Of a DNA stretch of 47,148 bases, positions 5,440 to 35,717 are shown piece after piece; within the stretch, counting starts at the first letter, position 1, and each line of letters starts with the position of its first letter. The position numbers and the translations under genes were made by a program. The DNA is from a virus: positions 1-47,148 of the IMG/VR virus record IMGVR_UViG_3300033148_004586, one strand, 5' to 3'. Below the pieces are notes generated by a model that was not told where the DNA came from, made no database searches, and saw only the letters and a list, made by a program, of their open reading frames with translations.

Positions 5440-5955
5440 TCATATTTTCATTTGCCCTATATTGTGCAAGAAATAATCGACAAATTTTACTTGGCACAAT
5501 AAACGTAAATTTCCCCAACGATTAAATATACCGCAGCCAGAATCGCCTGGATTACCGGCAATGTCCAACTGAACCAATCTCTTATTACCAAACAAAAAAG
5601 CATTGACACGTTTCTTCCCAACAGCTCCCACAAAAAAACTATTTTTCAGACCAAATCGACTACCAATACCAAATACCTTCTGAGAAACAAAAGTTGGGAA
5701 CCAGCTTAACTTAGTTGGGGAAATACAATCATTACAGTCAAAGATAATCAAACCAAGGTCGGTGTCATCAGCTTCAATAAATCTGGTAGCGTGTATCTTT
5801 GTGCCGTCATCGGTCGTGATATATGCGTCCTCTGCATTTTCAACAACGTGTCTGGCTGTTAATATAACCCCATCATCTATAACTACACCTGAACTCCGCC
5901 ACGCGGGATAACCGCCAATCTCAATATGCACCATCACTACGGAGTCTCTAACCAT
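5440..5955 (-). CDS. Trypsin-like serine protease
   Basis: The three motifs of chymotrypsin-fold proteases appear in order: His in VILTARHVV (about residue 35), Asp in ADDTDLGLI (about 66) and Ser in AGNPGDSGCGI (about 137), where GDSG is the classic nucleophile motif. At 171 residues it is a minimal catalytic domain. It lies within the head-tail cluster, so it may process virion proteins or act on the host surface; neither is shown. The start has no clear Shine-Dalgarno; a membrane-segment ORF with a strong one overlaps its 5' end in another frame and may supply coupling, or a signal anchor if the two were once fused. Confidence 0.8.
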   Translation of the reverse strand: MVRDSVVMVHIEIGGYPAWRSSGVVIDDGVILTARHVVENAEDAYITTDDGTKIHATRFIEADDTDLGLIIFDCNDCISPTKLSWFPTFVSQKVFGIGSRFGLKNSFFVGAVGKKRVNAFLFGNKRLVQLDIAGNPGDSGCGIFNRWGNLRLLCQVKFVDYFLHNIGQMKI

Positions 5956-6020
5956 ACTATAAGGAAAAGAAGAATAGCAAGCAGCCCAGCCTTTACAGCC
6001 CTCTTACTTCGCTTGCACAT
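5937..6020 (-). CDS. 27-residue membrane peptide overlapping the protease start
   Basis: An AAGGAGAGAAA Shine-Dalgarno, perfectly spaced, precedes ATG. The peptide is Lys/Arg-rich at its N-terminus (MCKRSKRAVK) followed by a hydrophobic helix (AGLLAILLFLIVWL), as in a signal anchor. Its stop lies just inside the protease gene in a different frame. Either it is a genuine micro-protein that couples protease translation, or it is the signal anchor of the protease separated by a frameshift. Confidence 0.5.
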   Translation of the reverse strand: MCKRSKRAVKAGLLAILLFLIVWLETP

Positions 6021-6848: not shown

Positions 6849-7016
6849 TTATTCATAAGCAACATCTATTTCTTTTAATTGCCTAATAATACTATAATCC
6901 ACTCTACGCAAACCGCCATCAAACACTTTCCCAACCGTCTTGGGAGTATTTTGAAGGTCTGTCTGGATAAGTCCCTGAATTAACCTCTCCGCTTCCTGGT
7001 TATGTACTCCTATCAC
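6849..7016 (-). pseudogene. C-terminal fragment of head-tail connector
   Basis: A 55-codon frame starts at GTG overlapping the preceding stop and reads VIGVHNQEAERLIQGLIQTD, then NTPKTVGKVFDGG. In podophage connector/adaptor proteins this type of HxQEAERL helix forms the C-terminus of the same polypeptide whose N-terminal part is encoded immediately before. The segment normally between them (a YPTP/YRY-type strand and an acidic helix, from memory of the family) is absent. It could be expressed as a separate peptide, but a deleted connector is the simpler reading. Confidence 0.6.
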
Positions 7017-7017
7017 A

Positions 7018-7443
7018 TCATACCTCTTTCAGTGTGCCAATTTCTTTAATATACTTACCATTTCTAATAGCAAAGATGTAAGGGTACGATGTTGACGAAA
7101 TAACCGTCCGAGCCTCCATCACCTGACCAACAGTCCGTTCTTTCATTGGGGGCAAACCCTTCCCCTCAGCAAAACTAAATGGACGTGTTAAATAACCGAA
7201 ATCCGCAGGAAGGTCATATTGCCATTGTCCCGAAACTGTGATGATTGTACCGTGTTGCTTCAGAAATGACCACACGTGGGGCTTTCCGTTACGAAGATTT
7301 ATTGGCTGCAAGAAACGCCGATAGCCTCTATAAACAAGGTTCTTGGCTTTTGTAACATCCCCCGCTGCCGGACTCGACCCCCATCCCACAAATTCACCGA
7401 CTAAATCATACACGGTTTCAAATGTTTGCTCAAGTGTACTCAC
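7018..7443 (-). CDS. Head-tail connector (adaptor), N-terminal part
   Basis: GTG start; 141 residues. Helical N-terminus (MSTLEQTFETVYDLVGEFVG), then the conserved core YRRFLQPINLRNGKPHVWSF and GQWQYDLPADFGYLTRPFSF. This pattern (VWSFL…Y.LP.DFGYLTRPF) is that of gp4-like adaptor proteins below the portal in podophages. It ends abruptly after KEIGTLKEV, where relatives continue for tens of residues; the family C-terminus follows in another frame. Two hairpins lie between it and the gene upstream. Confidence 0.7.
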   Translation of the reverse strand: MSTLEQTFETVYDLVGEFVGWGSSPAAGDVTKAKNLVYRGYRRFLQPINLRNGKPHVWSFLKQHGTIITVSGQWQYDLPADFGYLTRPFSFAEGKGLPPMKERTVGQVMEARTVISSTSYPYIFAIRNGKYIKEIGTLKEV

Positions 7444-7463
7444 TAAATACCCCTTTAAGATTA

Positions 7464-7492
7464 GGTAAGCCGGAGGGTTACTCCGGCCTACC
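7464..7492 (-). promoter_or_regulatory. Strong hairpin in connector 5' leader
   Basis: GCCGGAG pairs perfectly with CTCCGGC around a 5-nt loop, extended by GGTA/TACC across one mismatch. It sits about 20 nt upstream of the connector GTG and downstream of a terminator-like hairpin. It may protect processed mRNA or modulate translation. Confidence 0.5.
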
Positions 7493-7499
7493 CACTATA

Positions 7500-7529
7500 A
7501 AAAATAACAAAGGAGACAGGCCTGTCCCC
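7500..7529 (-). terminator. Rho-independent terminator (leftward)
   Basis: On the minus strand GGGGACA-GGCC-TGTCTCC (7-bp stem with one G-U pair) is followed by TTTGTTATTTTTT. It lies just after the stop of the preceding head gene, so it may partly terminate the head transcript before the tail genes. Confidence 0.65.
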
Positions 7530-7538
7530 CTGTAAAAA

Positions 7539-7913
7539 TCAAACCTCCTCTGCTTGAAAAACCCGCCGAATACAAACCTCATGCATCTTACCCCCAAGTG
7601 GTCTTACACCTCTGACAGGGTCAGGTTTCTGGGAAATTAAAGCATCCATTGCTTTCCTAATTAAGCCTATTTCCTTCTCATCAACAATAATCTCATCCCC
7701 AGCAGCCGCAATCTGTTTTGACAAATCATAGGCAGCACAACACTCCATCCCGCCTTTGAATATCCCTTCTATTGTCAAGCAATTAAAAAGGTTTTCCTTG
7801 ATAGGATAAGGCACTTTCTCGGTTACTAACTCAATTTGTTTAGTTTCTTCATTTCTTTTGTTGACAGTAACCTCTATACTGTATTCAGATAAATCAATTT
7901 TGTAACGTTTCAT
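7539..7913 (-). CDS. Hypothetical head-region protein
   Basis: 124 residues, intact. It begins MKRYKIDLSEYSIEVTVNKR, charged and mixed alpha/beta, with a helical C-terminal half (EKEIGLIRKAMDALISQ) and a pair of adjacent Cys (ECCAAYDL). No domain recognised. It lies between the decoration proteins and the connector and ends before a good terminator, consistent with an assembly or minor head role. Confidence 0.6.
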   Translation of the reverse strand: MKRYKIDLSEYSIEVTVNKRNEETKQIELVTEKVPYPIKENLFNCLTIEGIFKGGMECCAAYDLSKQIAAAGDEIIVDEKEIGLIRKAMDALISQKPDPVRGVRPLGGKMHEVCIRRVFQAEEV

Positions 7914-13034: not shown

Positions 13035-13275
13035 AAGTTTCCTTGTTTGGAAAAAGAACATGTCCAGCGAACATCCCAATTATTACTTTCAATCGCCAAT
13101 CTACCCACATAAAACCTGTCAACAACACATAAAGTGTGATTCCAAATATAATCATATCAAACCATTTTGGAAACAATCGTTGATACTGTTGAGACAAGGT
13201 AGGGTGTTTTTTAAAAACCAAATATAAATCATATACCCCTGTCGCTATAAGCATTGTCAATAATATATAATTCAT
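13024..13275 (-). CDS. Small membrane protein
   Basis: 83 residues with hydrophobic segments at about 1-20, 43-57 and 60-75 (MNYILLTMLIATGVYDLYLV, FDMIIFGITLYVLLTGFMWV). It overlaps both the portal C-part stop and the lipoprotein start, so it is translationally coupled. Possibly holin-like; not assignable. Confidence 0.6.
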   Translation of the reverse strand: MNYILLTMLIATGVYDLYLVFKKHPTLSQQYQRLFPKWFDMIIFGITLYVLLTGFMWVDWRLKVIIGMFAGHVLFPNKETYEK

Positions 13276-14375
13276 TACTCTACCGGCTTTGAACTCTGTT
13301 GGAAAGCCCTACTTTGCTGTTGGCCCATATTGCTTTCACGTGAACCTTTATCATTATCCCCAAACCTACCATCCTGTACCCCACTGGCTTTCGGAACGAC
13401 TGCACCAGACATCGGCTGGTACGGCCCCATGCCTATATTTGCGGGTACAGCACTTTTCCACCATTGGTCAATATTTTCAATATCAAGGTATCTGGCTAAA
13501 TCTTTTGTTATTACATCAATATCCAAAGATATTCCCTGTTGACTCGCCATCTGTGAAATAGGAAGTACCCATTGGGTAAGAAACTGCAATGTCTTAGAGT
13601 ATTCAAGCGTGGGAGAATAACGCTGCATACTATAAGGCTCTATACTAAACGAAAAATCTTGGAAATCCCCTTCTTTAGCCGCCTGGTCAAACACAACATC
13701 TAAATCTACTACACCTGGAATACGCTTAACTTCCGGCATACTTATCAGAGGGTCGGTCCAAAGCCGCCAAGCCCATTTTCTCATTATTGACTCTGTAAAG
13801 TCGTGAACTTGTGCAACCATGTCCTCTAAAATTCTTGACGCATTGGATTGTAGCATCTGCTCTTGGCCAAGCGTTTTGGCTTGTACCCCGCGGCCACCTA
13901 TCGTATAAAGATTTCCCCCACTAATAGAAAACTGACTCTCAAGATAACCTACCCAGTCATAACTATCGGGGTTTATTCCGCCAAATTTAATTTGCTGCAT
14001 TGCTGTTACATCATTGACCCTAACGCTTTCTCTATCAGCCGCCTTAGCAACATTTTCCATATCTTCTGCCGCTTCACCAGAATAGGCATTGACTGTCTTT
14101 TCGTTCTCAGCCTGAGTCCTCATTTTGTTTGCAAGGACGTTCACAGCAGTATCATAATCTGTCCAGCCCCAAGCTGGGGGTATCGGTATGGGAGAATTTG
14201 GAAAATGCTTATATGATAATACATCAAAAGGCCCACCTTCGGGACCATCACACTCAACAGTCCGCAAAATATGCCTATACCCTTCCGGTAAAATAGTAAT
14301 CACTACATCTTCATCTGGAAGCCATATATCTATAAACCTTGTCCATTCCCGCAGAGTATGAAAATCACTTGACAT
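13275..14375 (-). CDS. Portal protein, C-terminal part
   Basis: 366-codon frame with the portal core: FIDIWLPDEDVVITILPEGY, CDGPEGGPFDVLSYKHFPNS, PIPPAWGWTDYDTAVNVLAN, GGRGVQAKTLGQEQML and the C-terminal SIEPYSMQRYSPTLEYSK. This is the podophage-type portal that forms the dodecameric DNA gate. The frame begins inside the 3' end of the N-terminal portal frame, shifted by -1. Its own ATG has no Shine-Dalgarno, so a fusion by frameshift or a sequence indel is likely. Confidence 0.8.
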   Translation of the reverse strand: MSSDFHTLREWTRFIDIWLPDEDVVITILPEGYRHILRTVECDGPEGGPFDVLSYKHFPNSPIPIPPAWGWTDYDTAVNVLANKMRTQAENEKTVNAYSGEAAEDMENVAKAADRESVRVNDVTAMQQIKFGGINPDSYDWVGYLESQFSISGGNLYTIGGRGVQAKTLGQEQMLQSNASRILEDMVAQVHDFTESIMRKWAWRLWTDPLISMPEVKRIPGVVDLDVVFDQAAKEGDFQDFSFSIEPYSMQRYSPTLEYSKTLQFLTQWVLPISQMASQQGISLDIDVITKDLARYLDIENIDQWWKSAVPANIGMGPYQPMSGAVVPKASGVQDGRFGDNDKGSRESNMGQQQSRAFQQSSKPVE

Positions 14376-14974
14376 AAAGATATTGTGTCAGGACTTTCGT
14401 CCCCGTGTAACTTATGTGTTGGTTGTATTGCGTCCGCGTGTTTGCTCCTAAAAAACTCCTTTGCATAAGCTGTCGGCAGATGATAGTAATGCCCTTCTAT
14501 CTCAAAGTTCTCTCTGTTTCTGGCAGACACATCACCAATATAATCGGAGTCATCTATTACGTCTGTATAAATCTGGCCTATATCGTGCAAATACCCGTTA
14601 AACTCTACTTCTTCAGCTTTCATTATCCCTGTTTTTGTAATACCCATGCCAAACATAGAGTTAAAAATTGCAGGACGTAAACAATATTTTGCAAACCTGA
14701 TTTCAGTCATCAAATGGTTTATCGCCAATTCTGTTGTGTACGCCCATGGACGTAACTGTGGTATTTTACTCCGCACCAAAACTTTGGGATTATTCATAGA
14801 AAGGTACGGTACAATAATGCTAACAGCCCTATCTGTAAGATTTAGCAAATGCCCCTCAACTTTATCTTTGGCATAAAAATTTGAGGCCCATTGGTCCAAC
14901 ATCATCTTTCTATGTTGTAGAGGGGTCTTCACTATAAAAGGTCTTGTATTATTTGTATTTTGCAGTCTCTCCAT
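14330..14974 (-). CDS. Portal protein, N-terminal part
   Basis: 214 residues: MERLQNTNNTRPFIVKTPLQ, then a helical region (MLDQWASNFYAKDKVEGHLL) and HLMTEIRFAKYCLRPAIFNS, typical of portal N-terminal wings. It runs out of meaningful sequence after HGDESPDTISL, exactly where the next frame picks up with the portal body. The intact protein would be ~560 residues. The switch must happen between a TGA in the -1 frame and the TAG here, a window of about 60 nt, around TATCTTTATG; no classic slippery heptamer is present. Confidence 0.75.
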   Translation of the reverse strand: MERLQNTNNTRPFIVKTPLQHRKMMLDQWASNFYAKDKVEGHLLNLTDRAVSIIVPYLSMNNPKVLVRSKIPQLRPWAYTTELAINHLMTEIRFAKYCLRPAIFNSMFGMGITKTGIMKAEEVEFNGYLHDIGQIYTDVIDDSDYIGDVSARNRENFEIEGHYYHLPTAYAKEFFRSKHADAIQPTHKLHGDESPDTISLCQVIFILCGNGQGL

Positions 14975-15223
14975 TTATTTCAGCTTCCGAATTTTTTTTA
15001 CCATACCCAGAGGAATCACTGTACTTGAACGTTCTTTGCAATTATTCCAATCAGGACTTACTACAATAGCTACCTTATTGTGTGTAACATAATAGCCAAT
15101 ACTGTAGCAAATAGCCGGAACATCTTTTTCTACTTTCTTCTCATTTCTCCAACCACTGTCAGATGTTGCATCAAGCCAAACTATCTCAACAATGTCATTG
15201 TAAGCCAGTCTTGGTACTTTCAT
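14975..15223 (-). CDS. Conserved small protein between terminase and portal
   Basis: 82 residues, predicted beta-rich (DIVEIVWLDATSDSGWRNEK, HNKVAIVVSPDWNNCKERSS, VIPLGMVKKIRKLK). The fold looks like a small barrel that ends in a basic tail. It overlaps the large terminase stop (ATGA) and touches the portal start, so it belongs to the packaging operon. No known function. Confidence 0.65.
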   Translation of the reverse strand: MKVPRLAYNDIVEIVWLDATSDSGWRNEKKVEKDVPAICYSIGYYVTHNKVAIVVSPDWNNCKERSSTVIPLGMVKKIRKLK

Positions 15224-17253
15224 ATCAAGAATTTCCTGTTATAATCCGGTTGATTCATTGCTCGTTCACGCTGTTTGGCACGATAAGCAAAACAATTCTT
15301 TGGAATTTTTTTTACCTCCACAGCAGCCGCTTTTGGTTGTTCCTTCATAGCTAAAATTGTTAAACCTAAAGCAATAACCCTGTCCCCGTGCGAAGCCTCC
15401 GCACCAGAATCCTCGTCCTCAGATAGCCCCGATGGACCTATTTTCTTATTTTCAAAAGTAATATAAGTCTCAAGCTCCGTTAAAGTTTTCCCATCGTGCA
15501 AAACTATATACTTGCCGTCTGGCTTTGTTTGCAAACCCTTGGCTAAAGCTAAATTTAAATCTTCAAGTAAATCAAACTTCTCATCTGGAGAACTGTGCCA
15601 ACCAAAAGTTTGTTTCTTTTTTCTTGTTCTTGCTCTTTCATTTTTACGGGTATAAACAAAAGTATAACCCAACCTCCTCCGCCTTTGGTCGAAAGCCCCA
15701 CCAGGACCGTTTTCTTCCCATATTAAAAAAGCTTGTCGAGTAAGGCCACCACACCACATACAAATTGCTACAGCTTGGTCCGCAAAAGAATCTGGTGTAG
15801 TATTTGGACAAACCCATATACCAACCTGCTCACTTGTATTAACGTCCACAATTTGAGCCACAGAGTTTGATGCCCCCATGCCCCTCGCTATGTCGCACGC
15901 TACTATATAGTTGTGAGTTTGGTCCGGTCTTCCTTTAATTAGCTTGCTCCACCATCTAAATCTCCCGCGTCCCCCTTCTTTGAAATAAGGTTGTGATATT
16001 CTGGGCACATGGTTTTTACCCCTTGTTTTTAACGTAAATTGAATCTCACCTTTATACTTCGCAGGAAAAATAGTATCTAACCGTATTCTCCGCAGGGTTG
16101 CTGGGGAAAAGAACATTGCACCTGACCCCATCGGATTTCGGTCCACATTCTGAGCCATCCCTCTTGGTGTTCTTTTTTCTTCTTGGATGTCATACCATTT
16201 GCTCCTCCAACCTCCCTCGTTCGCGTCTCCTCCATCAGCTATAAAGCTTATGTTTTTAAGTTTTTTTGCAGCTTCCTCTGGAAGAGTGAGCATTTCCTTC
16301 GTAAAGGTGCTTAATTTAAAAGGCTTCATTGCTTCTATATTTTCAAAAGCCTCTGGAGCAAGGGCTTTATAATAGTCAATATCTTTAATCTCAATTATGT
16401 CATAGGATGGTGAGCGATATAGCCCCTCGTTTTTTTCGGGGTTCCTTTCCCAAGGTAAAGTAATAACATCCATTTTACCACTTGATAACAATTTATTATA
16501 AGGATGTCCAACACCGTAAAAGTGCGTAGAATTGACAATAATACAATCTGTTACATCTGGCAGATTGTCTATAATTGAAGCAGCTATCCTGGGGTCCGTA
16601 CGCCCATGCTCATCAACCATTGTGGCCCTTGTTCTATCACCTGCTCCGAAATTTTCATTACAAGACTGCCCATATATAACGCTACCATTGTCTAAATTTT
16701 CTGTACGCATATAAGTTTTAAGAAAATTTGGTTGCATCCACAAGGGCCAATGGATAATTGCATAAACTAATTTGTGCATTAAACATTTATGCACCCCCGT
16801 CAACTTCCCTTTCGATACTTCCACACCCGAATCTACGAACTCCGCAGCACGTGAACCTACCAAAAAAGACTCTTGTGGAAAAAGCCTCCAATATAGAGCA
16901 AATAATTTAATAATAAGCTCTGTTGCTCCCTCTTCTCTGGATTTGTCTATAAGTTTGTTTTTCCCCTCATCAATACCTGATTTCAATTCATTGACCGCCT
17001 CAACCTGAGCCTCTCTTAAAATAAAAGGACGGTTCACACAACCGCGTGGCTGTCGGGGGTCATAAGTAAAACAACATAAATCAAAGTACAATTGCGGTTT
17101 TTGAAAACACATTTCCAGAAAGATTTTCTGCATACTTTGGTCTGTTGCCAATAGCTTATGAAAGTCCATTCTAAATTGTATGTTTTCTGCAACAGTTCTG
17201 GGAACTATTTCTAACAAAGTCTCTGGCGTATCAAAGGCTTTTAGTTTCAACAA
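15220..17253 (-). CDS. terL: Terminase large subunit
   Basis: 677 residues, full length and intact. The ATPase half shows a Walker-A-like DKSREEGATEL (about 102-112) and a Walker-B-like ATMVDEHGR (about 210-218). The nuclease half shows IVACDIARGMGASNSV (first catalytic Asp), LIWEENGPGG and a late GDRVIALGL, consistent with the RNase-H-like fold that cuts concatemers. It pumps DNA through the portal. It follows the small terminase with a short overlap and is the clearest hallmark gene in the window. Confidence 0.9.
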   Translation of the reverse strand: MLKLKAFDTPETLLEIVPRTVAENIQFRMDFHKLLATDQSMQKIFLEMCFQKPQLYFDLCCFTYDPRQPRGCVNRPFILREAQVEAVNELKSGIDEGKNKLIDKSREEGATELIIKLFALYWRLFPQESFLVGSRAAEFVDSGVEVSKGKLTGVHKCLMHKLVYAIIHWPLWMQPNFLKTYMRTENLDNGSVIYGQSCNENFGAGDRTRATMVDEHGRTDPRIAASIIDNLPDVTDCIIVNSTHFYGVGHPYNKLLSSGKMDVITLPWERNPEKNEGLYRSPSYDIIEIKDIDYYKALAPEAFENIEAMKPFKLSTFTKEMLTLPEEAAKKLKNISFIADGGDANEGGWRSKWYDIQEEKRTPRGMAQNVDRNPMGSGAMFFSPATLRRIRLDTIFPAKYKGEIQFTLKTRGKNHVPRISQPYFKEGGRGRFRWWSKLIKGRPDQTHNYIVACDIARGMGASNSVAQIVDVNTSEQVGIWVCPNTTPDSFADQAVAICMWCGGLTRQAFLIWEENGPGGAFDQRRRRLGYTFVYTRKNERARTRKKKQTFGWHSSPDEKFDLLEDLNLALAKGLQTKPDGKYIVLHDGKTLTELETYITFENKKIGPSGLSEDEDSGAEASHGDRVIALGLTILAMKEQPKAAAVEVKKIPKNCFAYRAKQRERAMNQPDYNRKFLI

Positions 17254-17629
17254 CTTTACTCTCTACTTTCTTTTTCTTGTCTGCGGCATCTGCTTGGGCA
17301 AGAAGCTTACCTGCGAAATCCCGAATAGTGTCAGACTCAATCTGGCCAGTTATCTGAACATCGAGGTTCTTTCTGGTTTCTTGGATATTTATATTTTTAG
17401 TGTTTGTAAACTCATTTGACATATTTATCAAAAAGAACTGGAGTAAACTGGCGTCCGGTTTTTGGTGTTTCTTAGTTTTTTTAACACATTCCATTTCCCA
17501 AAAAGGGTTGCCATGCTCATCCTCCTTTTTCTTTCTTTCCCAAATCTCTTCCTCATAATCATAACCACAGGCTGCTTTCAACCCGCTTGATATTAAGTAA
17601 TTCTTTGCAATGTCTCTACCATTTTCCAT
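17231..17629 (-). CDS. Terminase small subunit, C-terminal part
   Basis: 132-codon frame: MENGRDIAKNYLISSGLKAA, CGYDYEEEIWERKKKEDE, QKPDASLLQFFLINMS. The GxxxAxxxL…GYDYEEE pattern is that of small terminases immediately after the DNA-binding helix-turn-helix and linker. The helix-turn-helix itself is in the upstream frame, -1 relative to this one. About eight residues usually found at the junction (a hydrophobic PEF-like turn) are absent, so a short deletion is suspected. Confidence 0.65.
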   Translation of the reverse strand: MENGRDIAKNYLISSGLKAACGYDYEEEIWERKKKEDEHGNPFWEMECVKKTKKHQKPDASLLQFFLINMSNEFTNTKNINIQETRKNLDVQITGQIESDTIRDFAGKLLAQADAADKKKKVESKVVETKSL

Positions 17630-17832
17630 TTAGCAATTGTACTTGCCCGCACCCCCAAAACATAACCCAAATCTTTCTCAGAGTGCCCAGAAGCCACCAA
17701 TCGAGCAGCTATTTTCACAAACTTATAATCCCACTTGACACGTTTCCGCGTTTTATACACCTTAACGTCATCATTCCAATTCTTATAATCTTTTTTAACT
17801 GCCTCTTTTTTGTTAAGTGGTTTACGAGCCAT
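17593..17832 (-). CDS. Terminase small subunit, N-terminal HTH part
   Basis: 79 residues: a basic N-terminus, then KFVKIAARLVASGHSEKDLG and YVLGVRASTIAKWK, a clear helix-turn-helix used for recognising packaging sites. After IAKWK the frame runs for nine unrelated residues and stops, while the expected continuation is in the -1 frame. The ATG overlaps the stop of the small zinc protein upstream (TAATG). Confidence 0.7.
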   Translation of the reverse strand: MARKPLNKKEAVKKDYKNWNDDVKVYKTRKRVKWDYKFVKIAARLVASGHSEKDLGYVLGVRASTIAKWKMVETLQRIT

Positions 17833-18957: not shown

Positions 18958-19149
18958 ATGATTAGAGACGATGGTTTAATGAACTGCCAGGAGTGTAGAG
19001 AAGTGCTTCCTTTATCAGAGTTTCCTTATGATAAAAATTATCCAAGGTATAAATTTCCAATATGTGTATATTGTTTAAGAGAAATCAGAAATAAAAAAAG
19101 AAAAGCTTCAATAAGATTAAGGGGGTATGCGTACCACTTATCATGTTAA
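18958..19149 (+). CDS. Small HNH-like zinc-finger protein
   Basis: 63 residues: MNCQECREVLPLSEFPYDKN then PICVYCLREIRNKKRK. Two CxxC pairs about 33 residues apart resemble the zinc cradle of small HNH proteins, but no catalytic His-Asn-His is evident. ATG directly follows the previous stop, and the C-terminus overlaps the polymerase ATG. Confidence 0.65.
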   Translation: MIRDDGLMNCQECREVLPLSEFPYDKNYPRYKFPICVYCLREIRNKKRKASIRLRGYAYHLSC

Positions 19150-20612
19150 GAGAGTACATCACAACTTATAATCAGTTTGCTCTTTGGGTAGGAGCTATTA
19201 GGTCAAATAAGTTGTCTCTGGATACTGAGACCACCGACCTGAGTTATTGCAAACTGGACCTTATAGGTTTTAGCCTTTGTGATGGTAAGCGAGCTTGTTA
19301 TGTGAATGTATGGGAAAACCCTGAACGTGATGCTATTTTAACTTGCTTAAATGTGCTTTTACTTTCACACCCCGCTTTTCAAAAACTTATATTTCATAAT
19401 GCTCCTTTTGACCTAAAAGTATTGCACAAAACAGTTTGTACTAAAGTAACTCCTGATATTTTTTGTACTATGACAGCCGCCCACCTTATTAATGAGAACC
19501 TTCCTGTTGGTTTAAAGTATTTAGCAAGAAACTATTTGAACGAGATAAACACAAAAACTTACGAGCAAGCTTCAAGACGTGGTTTTGATACACCTGAGTT
19601 TATTGAGTATGCCACAAATGATGCAATTTGGACATGGCAGTTGCACGAGATATTTAACAAAAAATTATATCAGCAGAAACTTGATAAGCTTTTCTTTGAG
19701 ATTGAAATGCCTTTCCAGTTTGTTTTGATGGACTTAGACATTAACGGGGTGTTATTTAATCCACAAGAGGTTGAAAAACTGAAAATTAAAGTCATGGAAG
19801 ATATTTATAATATGGAGTTTAAACTAAGAGATTATGCAGGGGTAAAGTACCAAACACAAAACATGCTCTTTACAGATAAAAAGGAAATCCTTTCAGGTAT
19901 AAAAATGACCAGCCCCGATGATTTGGTGGACATTATCCAAAAAAGACTTGGTCTTGTTATTGAAGACTATACCAAAGGGGGAAAGAAAAGTTTACCAAAG
20001 CCAAGTTCGGGTAAAGCTACAATACTCAAATTAAAAGGTAAGCATAAGTTTATTGACTTATTAGAACAATATAAAATAGCCTCAAAATTATACAATGGTT
20101 TTCTTAACCCTTTTCAGAATTTTGTTGATATTGACGGTAGGGTCCATTCCAGCTTCCACAATTGTGTAGCCAGAACAGGAAGACTAAGTAGTAGTTCTCC
20201 AAATCTCCAGCAATCTCCAAAAGAGCGGAAAGAGTATCCTGTAGATTTTAGGGGAACAATCATCGCTCCAGAGGGTAAGTCTCTTATTGTAGCAGATTAC
20301 TCAGGGCAAGAGCTAAGAGTACTTACAGAGGTATCTAAAGACCCCGGATTGATTGATGCTTTTAAAAATGATAAAGACATTCACCTGGAAACAACTAACC
20401 GGTCTTTTGAGTTAAGTATCCCAGATGAGCAGTTGTACACAAAACATCCAAAGTACAAAAGTCTTAAAAAGAAGTATAAAAAAGAGCGTGATCTATGGGG
20501 GTGTCGAAAAGTCGTGGTGTCAGTGAGAAAATTGCTCAGAAATACATTGACGATTTTCTTGACCTGTACCCCTGCGTGCGTAAGGCTATTGAAAGATGTA
20601 GTAATTTTTTGA
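19143..20612 (+). CDS. DNA polymerase family A, N-terminal part (exonuclease plus palm start)
   Basis: The frame carries the 3'-5' proofreading motifs LDTETTDL (Exo I, ~27), FHNAPFDL (Exo II, ~94) and YATNDAIWTW (Exo III, ~160). It then has polymerase motifs HSSFHNCVARTGRLSSSSPN (~333-352) and motif A VADYSGQELRVL (~381). It should next contain motif B (RxxxK…FGxxYG). Instead the frame drifts into unrelated residues after KKKYKKERDLW and stops. The remaining C-terminus is in the -1 frame. It would replicate the phage genome if intact. Confidence 0.85.
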   Translation: MLREYITTYNQFALWVGAIRSNKLSLDTETTDLSYCKLDLIGFSLCDGKRACYVNVWENPERDAILTCLNVLLLSHPAFQKLIFHNAPFDLKVLHKTVCTKVTPDIFCTMTAAHLINENLPVGLKYLARNYLNEINTKTYEQASRRGFDTPEFIEYATNDAIWTWQLHEIFNKKLYQQKLDKLFFEIEMPFQFVLMDLDINGVLFNPQEVEKLKIKVMEDIYNMEFKLRDYAGVKYQTQNMLFTDKKEILSGIKMTSPDDLVDIIQKRLGLVIEDYTKGGKKSLPKPSSGKATILKLKGKHKFIDLLEQYKIASKLYNGFLNPFQNFVDIDGRVHSSFHNCVARTGRLSSSSPNLQQSPKERKEYPVDFRGTIIAPEGKSLIVADYSGQELRVLTEVSKDPGLIDAFKNDKDIHLETTNRSFELSIPDEQLYTKHPKYKSLKKKYKKERDLWGCRKVVVSVRKLLRNTLTIFLTCTPACVRLLKDVVIF

Positions 20613-20956
20613 AACATTATAAGTATGTTTACACGCTTTCTGGTCGCAGAAGAAGGTTATATGACGACCTAACGCCAAAGGCTTATCGCCAAGCTTTCAA
20701 TTTTCTTATCCAAGGTTACTCGGCTGACATGACCAGATGTGCTGCAATAAATGTGCGTAATCTGGGACTGTCTCATCCAGAGTGGGGGTTGAAGTTGGTC
20801 TTGATTATTCACGATGAGTTAGTGCTGGAGATTAAAGATGATTATCTTGAAGTCGCAATTTGCGATGTCAAAGAGGCTATGGAAAAAGCCGTGTCTATGT
20901 GTGTTCCTTTGGTTGTTGATATAGGTTCGGGAAAACGTTATAGTGAGGCAAAATGA
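20495..20956 (+). CDS. DNA polymerase family A, C-terminal part
   Basis: 153 codons: MGVSKSRGVSEKIAQKYIDD and FLDLYPCVRKAIE, the helices that follow motif B, then YTLSGRRRRLYDD and motif C with catalytic HDE in VLIIHDELVLEI. The GVSK would normally follow the Tyr-Gly that ends motif B, so the fingers O-helix with its essential Lys and Tyr is missing from both frames. An internal TATGG microrepeat at the junction could explain a ~35-nt deletion. There is no Shine-Dalgarno for this ATG. Confidence 0.8.
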   Translation: MGVSKSRGVSEKIAQKYIDDFLDLYPCVRKAIERCSNFLKHYKYVYTLSGRRRRLYDDLTPKAYRQAFNFLIQGYSADMTRCAAINVRNLGLSHPEWGLKLVLIIHDELVLEIKDDYLEVAICDVKEAMEKAVSMCVPLVVDIGSGKRYSEAK

Positions 20957-34720: not shown

Positions 34721-34977
34721 TGAAACTTTTTGAATGGACAAAAGAAAAACATGACGGTATGATTACTTGTGGGGTAGATTGGAAGGAGTGGGGACTTCCT
34801 TTTTCAGTGCACCTCCACTTTGATAAGTTCAATAAGGGTCTGTTTATGCTTCCAGATGGAGAAACAAAAAAGAAACCTACCGGTTGGTGTAGCGAAATTA
34901 TAATAAGTTTTCTTTGTTTTTATTTATATGTTGAGTTTGATTATTGGTATTCAGAGGGCGGCAATGGAAAGAACTAA
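34720..34977 (+). CDS. Hypothetical protein
   Basis: 85 residues: MKLFEWTKEKHDGMITCGVD, WGLPFSVHLHFDKFNKGLFM, then a hydrophobic end. Overlaps helicase stop (TGATG) and primase start. Not recognised. Confidence 0.55.
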   Translation: MKLFEWTKEKHDGMITCGVDWKEWGLPFSVHLHFDKFNKGLFMLPDGETKKKPTGWCSEIIISFLCFYLYVEFDYWYSEGGNGKN

Positions 34978-35326
34978 TTATCGGCATCTGTGCCCCATTT
35001 GTTCAAAACCTGACGGCTGTTTGTATGCCAAAGACGGAACTGCTGCAATATGTAGTCGAATTCAGGAAGGTTCTGTTAAAACTGTGGGCGAAGGTCCATT
35101 TAGCGGGGGCTATCTCCATATCCTCAAACCAGGGAATTTCAAACCCAAACCCGTTACAGTAAAAAAACAAGTGATTACAATTGCCTGGGGGAAACTCAAT
35201 GATGCTTATATGAATAACCTGAGCTATTTTTATGAAGACAGGTTAAATATCGGGCACTCTGTTGTTGATAGTTTGTGTGAGGAATGGAAACAAACCTATT
35301 GGCTTGCAACGACTTTACCCAGATAA
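34964..35326 (+). CDS. DNA primase, N-terminal zinc part
   Basis: 120 codons. MERTNYRHLCPICSKPDGCL then CSRIQEGSVK form the zinc site that reads the priming signal. The next segment (NNLSYFYEDRLNIGHSVVDS) is the linker to the catalytic core. The frame goes off after CEEWKQ and ends in PR, while the TOPRIM core continues in the +1 frame. The stretch expected at the junction appears shortened. Confidence 0.7.
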   Translation: MERTNYRHLCPICSKPDGCLYAKDGTAAICSRIQEGSVKTVGEGPFSGGYLHILKPGNFKPKPVTVKKQVITIAWGKLNDAYMNNLSYFYEDRLNIGHSVVDSLCEEWKQTYWLATTLPR

Positions 35327-35717
35327 TTCTAAAAGATTAGACAAACACAGCCAAGTGGGTATTTTAATCCCTCGGCTTAATTGGGATAACCTAAAGATTT
35401 TATTTATCTGCGAAGGGCTTTCGGATACCGCCACGGCTTTGGATATGGGCCTCTATGCGATTGGTAGATTAAGTTGTGGCACAGGCAAGGACCATATTGT
35501 AAGCTTTTGTCTGAAAAAGAAGCCATCACGAATTGTGATAGTTGCAGACCGAGACGCTCCTGGAGTAGCAGGGGCTGAAAAGCTTAGAATAAAGCTATCA
35601 GAAAAAGCTTTTAATGTGGGGACCTTGCTGTCAGAATATCAAGACCTCCGCGAATGGGTAAAAGAAAAAGGCCAGGTATTTGTGCGAAATAAAATTATTT
35701 CTTTAACAAAACCCTAA
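35262..35717 (+). CDS. DNA primase, TOPRIM catalytic part
   Basis: 151-codon frame: RNGNKPIGLQRLYPDNSKRL, then TOPRIM LFICEGLSDTATAL (catalytic Glu) and IVIVADRDAPGVAGAEKLRI (DxD), with a basic C-terminal helix. TOPRIM makes RNA primers for the fork. It is out of frame with the zinc-binding N-terminus. No Shine-Dalgarno serves its own ATG, so the gene is split or mis-sequenced. Confidence 0.75.
   Translation: MLIVCVRNGNKPIGLQRLYPDNSKRLDKHSQVGILIPRLNWDNLKILFICEGLSDTATALDMGLYAIGRLSCGTGKDHIVSFCLKKKPSRIVIVADRDAPGVAGAEKLRIKLSEKAFNVGTLLSEYQDLREWVKEKGQVFVRNKIISLTKP

Follow-up and report, generated by a model that had tools for sequence, protein, structure and literature searches.

The window (the whole 47,148-base stretch, an IMG/VR virus record) carries on its plus strand, at 19143–20956, a family A DNA polymerase gene that is read as two ORFs, the first at 19143–20612 (489 aa) and the second at 20495–20956 (153 aa), offset in frame by −1. 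The N-terminal part of the gene (19143–20492, +) begins with a Pfam DNA_pol_A_exo1 match, the 3'-5' exonuclease domain (about 19155–19667, +), and continues as thumb and palm with motif A, found in the ORF sequence at 20289–20318; its DNA_pol_A match reaches profile position 199, it is 77–78% identical to the intact homologues L027 and L028, and it ends at the opening Arg-Asp of motif B (CGTGAT, 20487–20492). The C-terminal part (20495–20956, +), in frame −1, comprises the remaining fingers and the palm, including motif C (CACGATGAG, 20810–20818), covers DNA_pol_A profile positions 225–380, and is 73–81% identical to L003–L005. The preliminary description of this DNA had placed the exonuclease motifs, motif A, and motif C in two halves lying in frames 0 and −1, and it was right on both counts. 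Judged by its sequence, the polymerase is of a known kind, with the exonuclease domain (PF01612) and motifs A and C of family A (PF00476) and about 25–30% identity to cultured phages; what it lacks of that kind is a single continuous ORF and motif B (RxxxK...YG, the O-helix), of which the Arg alone is left.

Nucleotide alignment with relatives (L003–L006) locates the loss at 20492/20493, where GAT (20490–20492) is followed directly by CTATGGGGGTGTCG and 46 nt are absent between the two (net −46 in 36 of 41 supporting comparisons), more than the roughly 35 nt first suggested. The lost stretch amounts to 15 codons of motif B and the O-helix plus one base, so the frame downstream changes by −1 and the gene reads as two ORFs. 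To the right of the join the downstream frame reads (A)-M-G-V-S-K, which fits the A-I/Y-G-V-S-K of the relatives; TATGG, earlier suggested as one of two flanking microrepeats, can therefore be assigned to the right flank alone, with no need for a repeat. Because these ordinary Ala-Met-Gly-Val codons also account for the five Gs, neither microrepeats nor an inserted G need be assumed there, and we rejected both. Motif B had been described as absent in every frame, and this holds for its Lys...Tyr part, which tblastn with the motif B segments of four relatives and six-frame pattern scans found nowhere in the window; the Arg survives (as RD), and Lys, Phe, and Tyr are gone. Among viral contigs that may not include the records closest to the window, scans for exact matches to 18–20 nt from each side of the join returned none, and no identical intact partner contig for the window was found.

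The closest relatives (L003/L027, 3300035698_015672; L004/L028, 3300033141_003411; and L005, 3300033148_004295) share 73–81% aa identity with the window polymerase over the C-terminal half and 67–78% over the N-terminal half, and each encodes it as one ORF of 615–630 aa with the sequence RDxxKNxVVFPxxYGTTAxGVSK. Alignment to the closest polymerases, one of the checks named in the preliminary description, sets a continuous ORF with motif B in the relatives against a window copy without the 46 nt. We checked 46 relative records for motif B; three stop before the spot, and the motif is kept in all the remaining 43 (some of them from the same phage), one having His in place of Arg and one being interrupted by an intein-like insert. 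No shortened motif B and no shortened polymerase was seen among the relatives checked. Motif B in 14 relatives reads R-x(3)-K-N-x(3)-F-P-x-x-Y-G (alignment A2, residues 454–468 of L038:2122-3990:-). The motif first expected at this place, FGxxYG, takes the form KNxxxFPxxYG in this group, and a search for FGxxYG would miss an intact copy as well.

We compared selection on the two halves by pN/pS, a rough measure here, with synonymous sites near saturation, and obtained 0.199 and 0.161 between the window and G001 vs. 0.202 and 0.221 for the intact pair G001–G002. The values of the window halves equal those of intact relatives, which argues that selection acted on the gene up to now or until very recently, and neither half shows another small frameshift or an in-frame stop. 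Real pseudogenes are usually rich in 1–2 nt indels and stop codons. Long-standing decay, one of three readings offered at the outset, would be expected to show relaxed selection or additional 1–2 nt frameshift or nonsense lesions, and we found none of these.

Another of the three readings was a split with replacement. We weighed it in the form of a shortened or split polymerase that still functions, made by −1 frameshifting on GGGGG or by internal initiation at the ATG at 20495, while a different protein provides the helix. In its favour, the frame after the join is open and begins with ATG, the overlap contains a GGGGG run, and natural two-ORF family A polymerases occur among the relatives (L121–L123). 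Against this, the catalytic Lys and Tyr would remain missing, the two pieces together do not hold all catalytic motifs, the window contains no motif B segment elsewhere that could act as a replacement, none of the relatives checked shows a shortened motif B, and the natural splits fall between thumb and motif A with motif B kept. We regard this reading as almost certainly wrong. That the phage truly makes a two-part polymerase devoid of its own O-helix, borrowing the function from another protein, is scarcely conceivable; a working polymerase of that sort would, if true, contradict known family A catalysis, and nothing supports it. As for the natural splits themselves, the polymerase of L121 (IMGVR 3300024433_000030, about 7000–7800) is divided after LPK, between thumb and motif A, around an insert that by eye resembles an HNH homing endonuclease, those of L122 (3300024262_000176) and L123 (3300009149_000116) are divided at the same site (about 7050) without an insert, and motif B is intact in all three.

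Lesions of this kind are not confined to the polymerase. Comparison of the relatives' ORFs with the window brought out comparable damage in other genes of the contig that are unrelated to it, all on the minus strand. The terminase small subunit-like gene (17231–17832, −; phrog_309), one ORF in relatives, carries a 34-nt out-of-frame deletion at about 17621–17623 (four-relative alignment; net −34 in 19 of 27 supporting comparisons). A conserved gene of ~585 aa in the portal position (13275–14974, −), which adjoins the terminase, has no family match, and is a single ORF in relatives, carries a 10-nt out-of-frame deletion at about 14375 and possibly a second, in-frame deletion of 39 nt at about 14940, near the gene start. 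A protease-like gene (5440–6020, −), also a single ORF in relatives, probably lacks 28 nt at about 5945, again out of frame, as judged against one reference. The terminase large subunit (15220–17253, −), which we used to gather relatives, is intact. Further possible lesions lie at about 7021 (158 nt, which may be a gene boundary instead) and at about 5515 (from one reference). The load of about 4–6 lesions in 47 kb is above that of most contigs, and no 1–2 nt frameshift was called in the broadly conserved window genes, nor was any nonsense lesion seen in the broken ones.

Two side observations concern the same contig. The primase-like gene (34928–35717) is present as two overlapping ORFs where relatives have one of 260–281 aa, and the region may hold a lesion at about 35215, with a deletion length of 38–62 nt on which the references disagree. 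In the relatives G006 and G013, a single ORF has matches to both contig ends (1–2027 and 45634–47148), each end aligning to a separate part of it. The probable reason is a circularly permuted genome whose contig begins and ends within a tail-fibre-like gene.

The same class of lesion recurs in other records. A scan of 52 contigs of relatives revealed clear deletions in 3300033141_003411 (40 nt), 3300033144_004517 (37 nt), 3300033153_002911 (12, 54, and 56 nt), and 3300047201_000037 (35 nt), with 3300009506_000138 as a possible further case; most of the other scanned contigs had no such site, or just in-frame length differences relative to distant relatives. One pair of contigs is particularly telling: across 5,962 aligned bases, 3300047201_000037 and 3300047202_000007 show no mismatch, and all that separates them is one 35-nt out-of-frame deletion, which hits a conserved gene in 3300047201_000037 (L102 1280 vs. 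L101/L053) and is the sole indel of at least 10 nt in 10 near-identical contig pairs (96–100% identity). Although a genuine variant is conceivable, a contig error is far likelier than a phage population differing only by a broken conserved gene.

Clear lesions measured 10, 12, 28, 34, 35, 37, 40, 46, 54, and 56 nt, with 39 nt as a possible addition, and about two thirds of them are out of frame, as expected without selection on the reading frame. Their junctions, where they could be judged, are close to blunt, with about 0–1 nt of microhomology. We considered whether all deletions were of length 3n+1 (10, 28, 34, 37, 40, 46), and rejected this, as 35 and 56 are 3n+2 and 12 and 54 are in frame; likewise, the joining of contig ends through a sequence overlap is unsupported as a cause, the overlap at judgeable junctions being 0–1 nt. 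Two points count against a contig-level origin: the high lesion load of the window, and the fact that the textbook errors of k-mer assembly do not include small, nearly blunt deletions. A literature search found no papers on these metagenome numbers or on this deletion artefact.

The spread of the lesions bears on two ways in which the loss could be genuine. If the deletions were real, the window would represent a defective phage or prophage genome with several very recent small deletions, one of which destroyed the polymerase. Genes that are essential (small terminase, portal position, polymerase, and probably the protease-like gene) are broken together in one contig, and the indifference of the lesions to reading frame is what an absence of selection would produce; however, the lack of 1–2 nt frameshift and nonsense lesions in these genes and the undisturbed pN/pS mean that every one of the deletions would have to be very recent, and lesions of the same class also turn up in other samples and distinguish contigs that are otherwise identical. 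We consider this account unlikely. An imprecise loss of an intein or intron from motif B, leaving a scar that took flanking polymerase codons, is suggested by L119 (5989–8748; IMGVR 3300005613_000134), in which the motif B lysine of a 920-aa family A polymerase is immediately followed by an intein-like insert of roughly 300 aa (NKAK/CFHPNTEV...TITGQ/TINFGIAYG), a site therefore used by such an element. Pfam lists no intein domain in that insert at E 0.001. No element remnant is present at the join in the window, though, and the same deletion class affects the small terminase, portal-position, and protease-like genes as well as other contigs, which makes a scar of this kind highly improbable.

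What has to be explained is directly observed: the deletion and its size, the similar lesions in other genes and contigs, and the near-identical pair. The occurrence of one lesion class in several genes, in other contigs, and in one otherwise identical pair points to a contig-level error and not to a new kind of polymerase, and we infer a technical cause: a deletion introduced when the library was made or the contig assembled is, with good probability, the best explanation of the split polymerase. The polymerase gene of the actual phage would then most likely be intact, and the window contig would carry one example of several small (10–56 nt), nearly blunt deletions that recur in IMG/VR contigs and most likely arise in library preparation or assembly and not by gene evolution; in the polymerase, the 46-nt deletion would simply have happened to take the Lys...Tyr part of motif B and to shift the frame by −1. 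Of the three readings first offered, it is accordingly sequence collapse that retains support, as a sequence- or contig-level deletion, whereas decay and a split with replacement do not. Public virus contigs can carry frame-breaking deletions of tens of bases in conserved genes, and such deletions mimic decayed, split, or recoded genes; the 3300047201_000037/3300047202_000007 pair illustrates this cleanly, and the window adds a set of broken genes that can serve as a further test set.

The E. coli Klenow fragment has the same domain order and motifs, and the profile of the intact relatives aligns with it over nearly its full length. In this alignment four conserved residues of motif B (Arg, Lys, Phe, and Tyr) pair with RRSAK-AINFGLIYG, where they are Arg754, Lys758, Phe762, and Tyr766 in the usual numbering. 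Klenow has K...FGxxYG where most intact relatives have KN...FPxxYG; in the 14 relatives aligned, the Klenow Gly is replaced by Pro and there is one more residue between Lys and Phe. Unlike Klenow-like phage PolA proteins (PF00476, PF01612), the window copy is without the Lys...Tyr part of motif B. Polymerase ORFs are likewise interrupted in the homing-element cases (the inserts of L119 and L121 and the splits of L122 and L123), but those keep all catalytic motifs, whereas the window has a deletion in motif B and no element. The precedent pair 3300047201_000037/3300047202_000007 differs in having an identical intact partner, the window deletion being judged instead against relatives of 73–81% identity; in both, the deletion is tens of bases long, nearly blunt, indifferent to reading frame, and set in otherwise undisturbed sequence.
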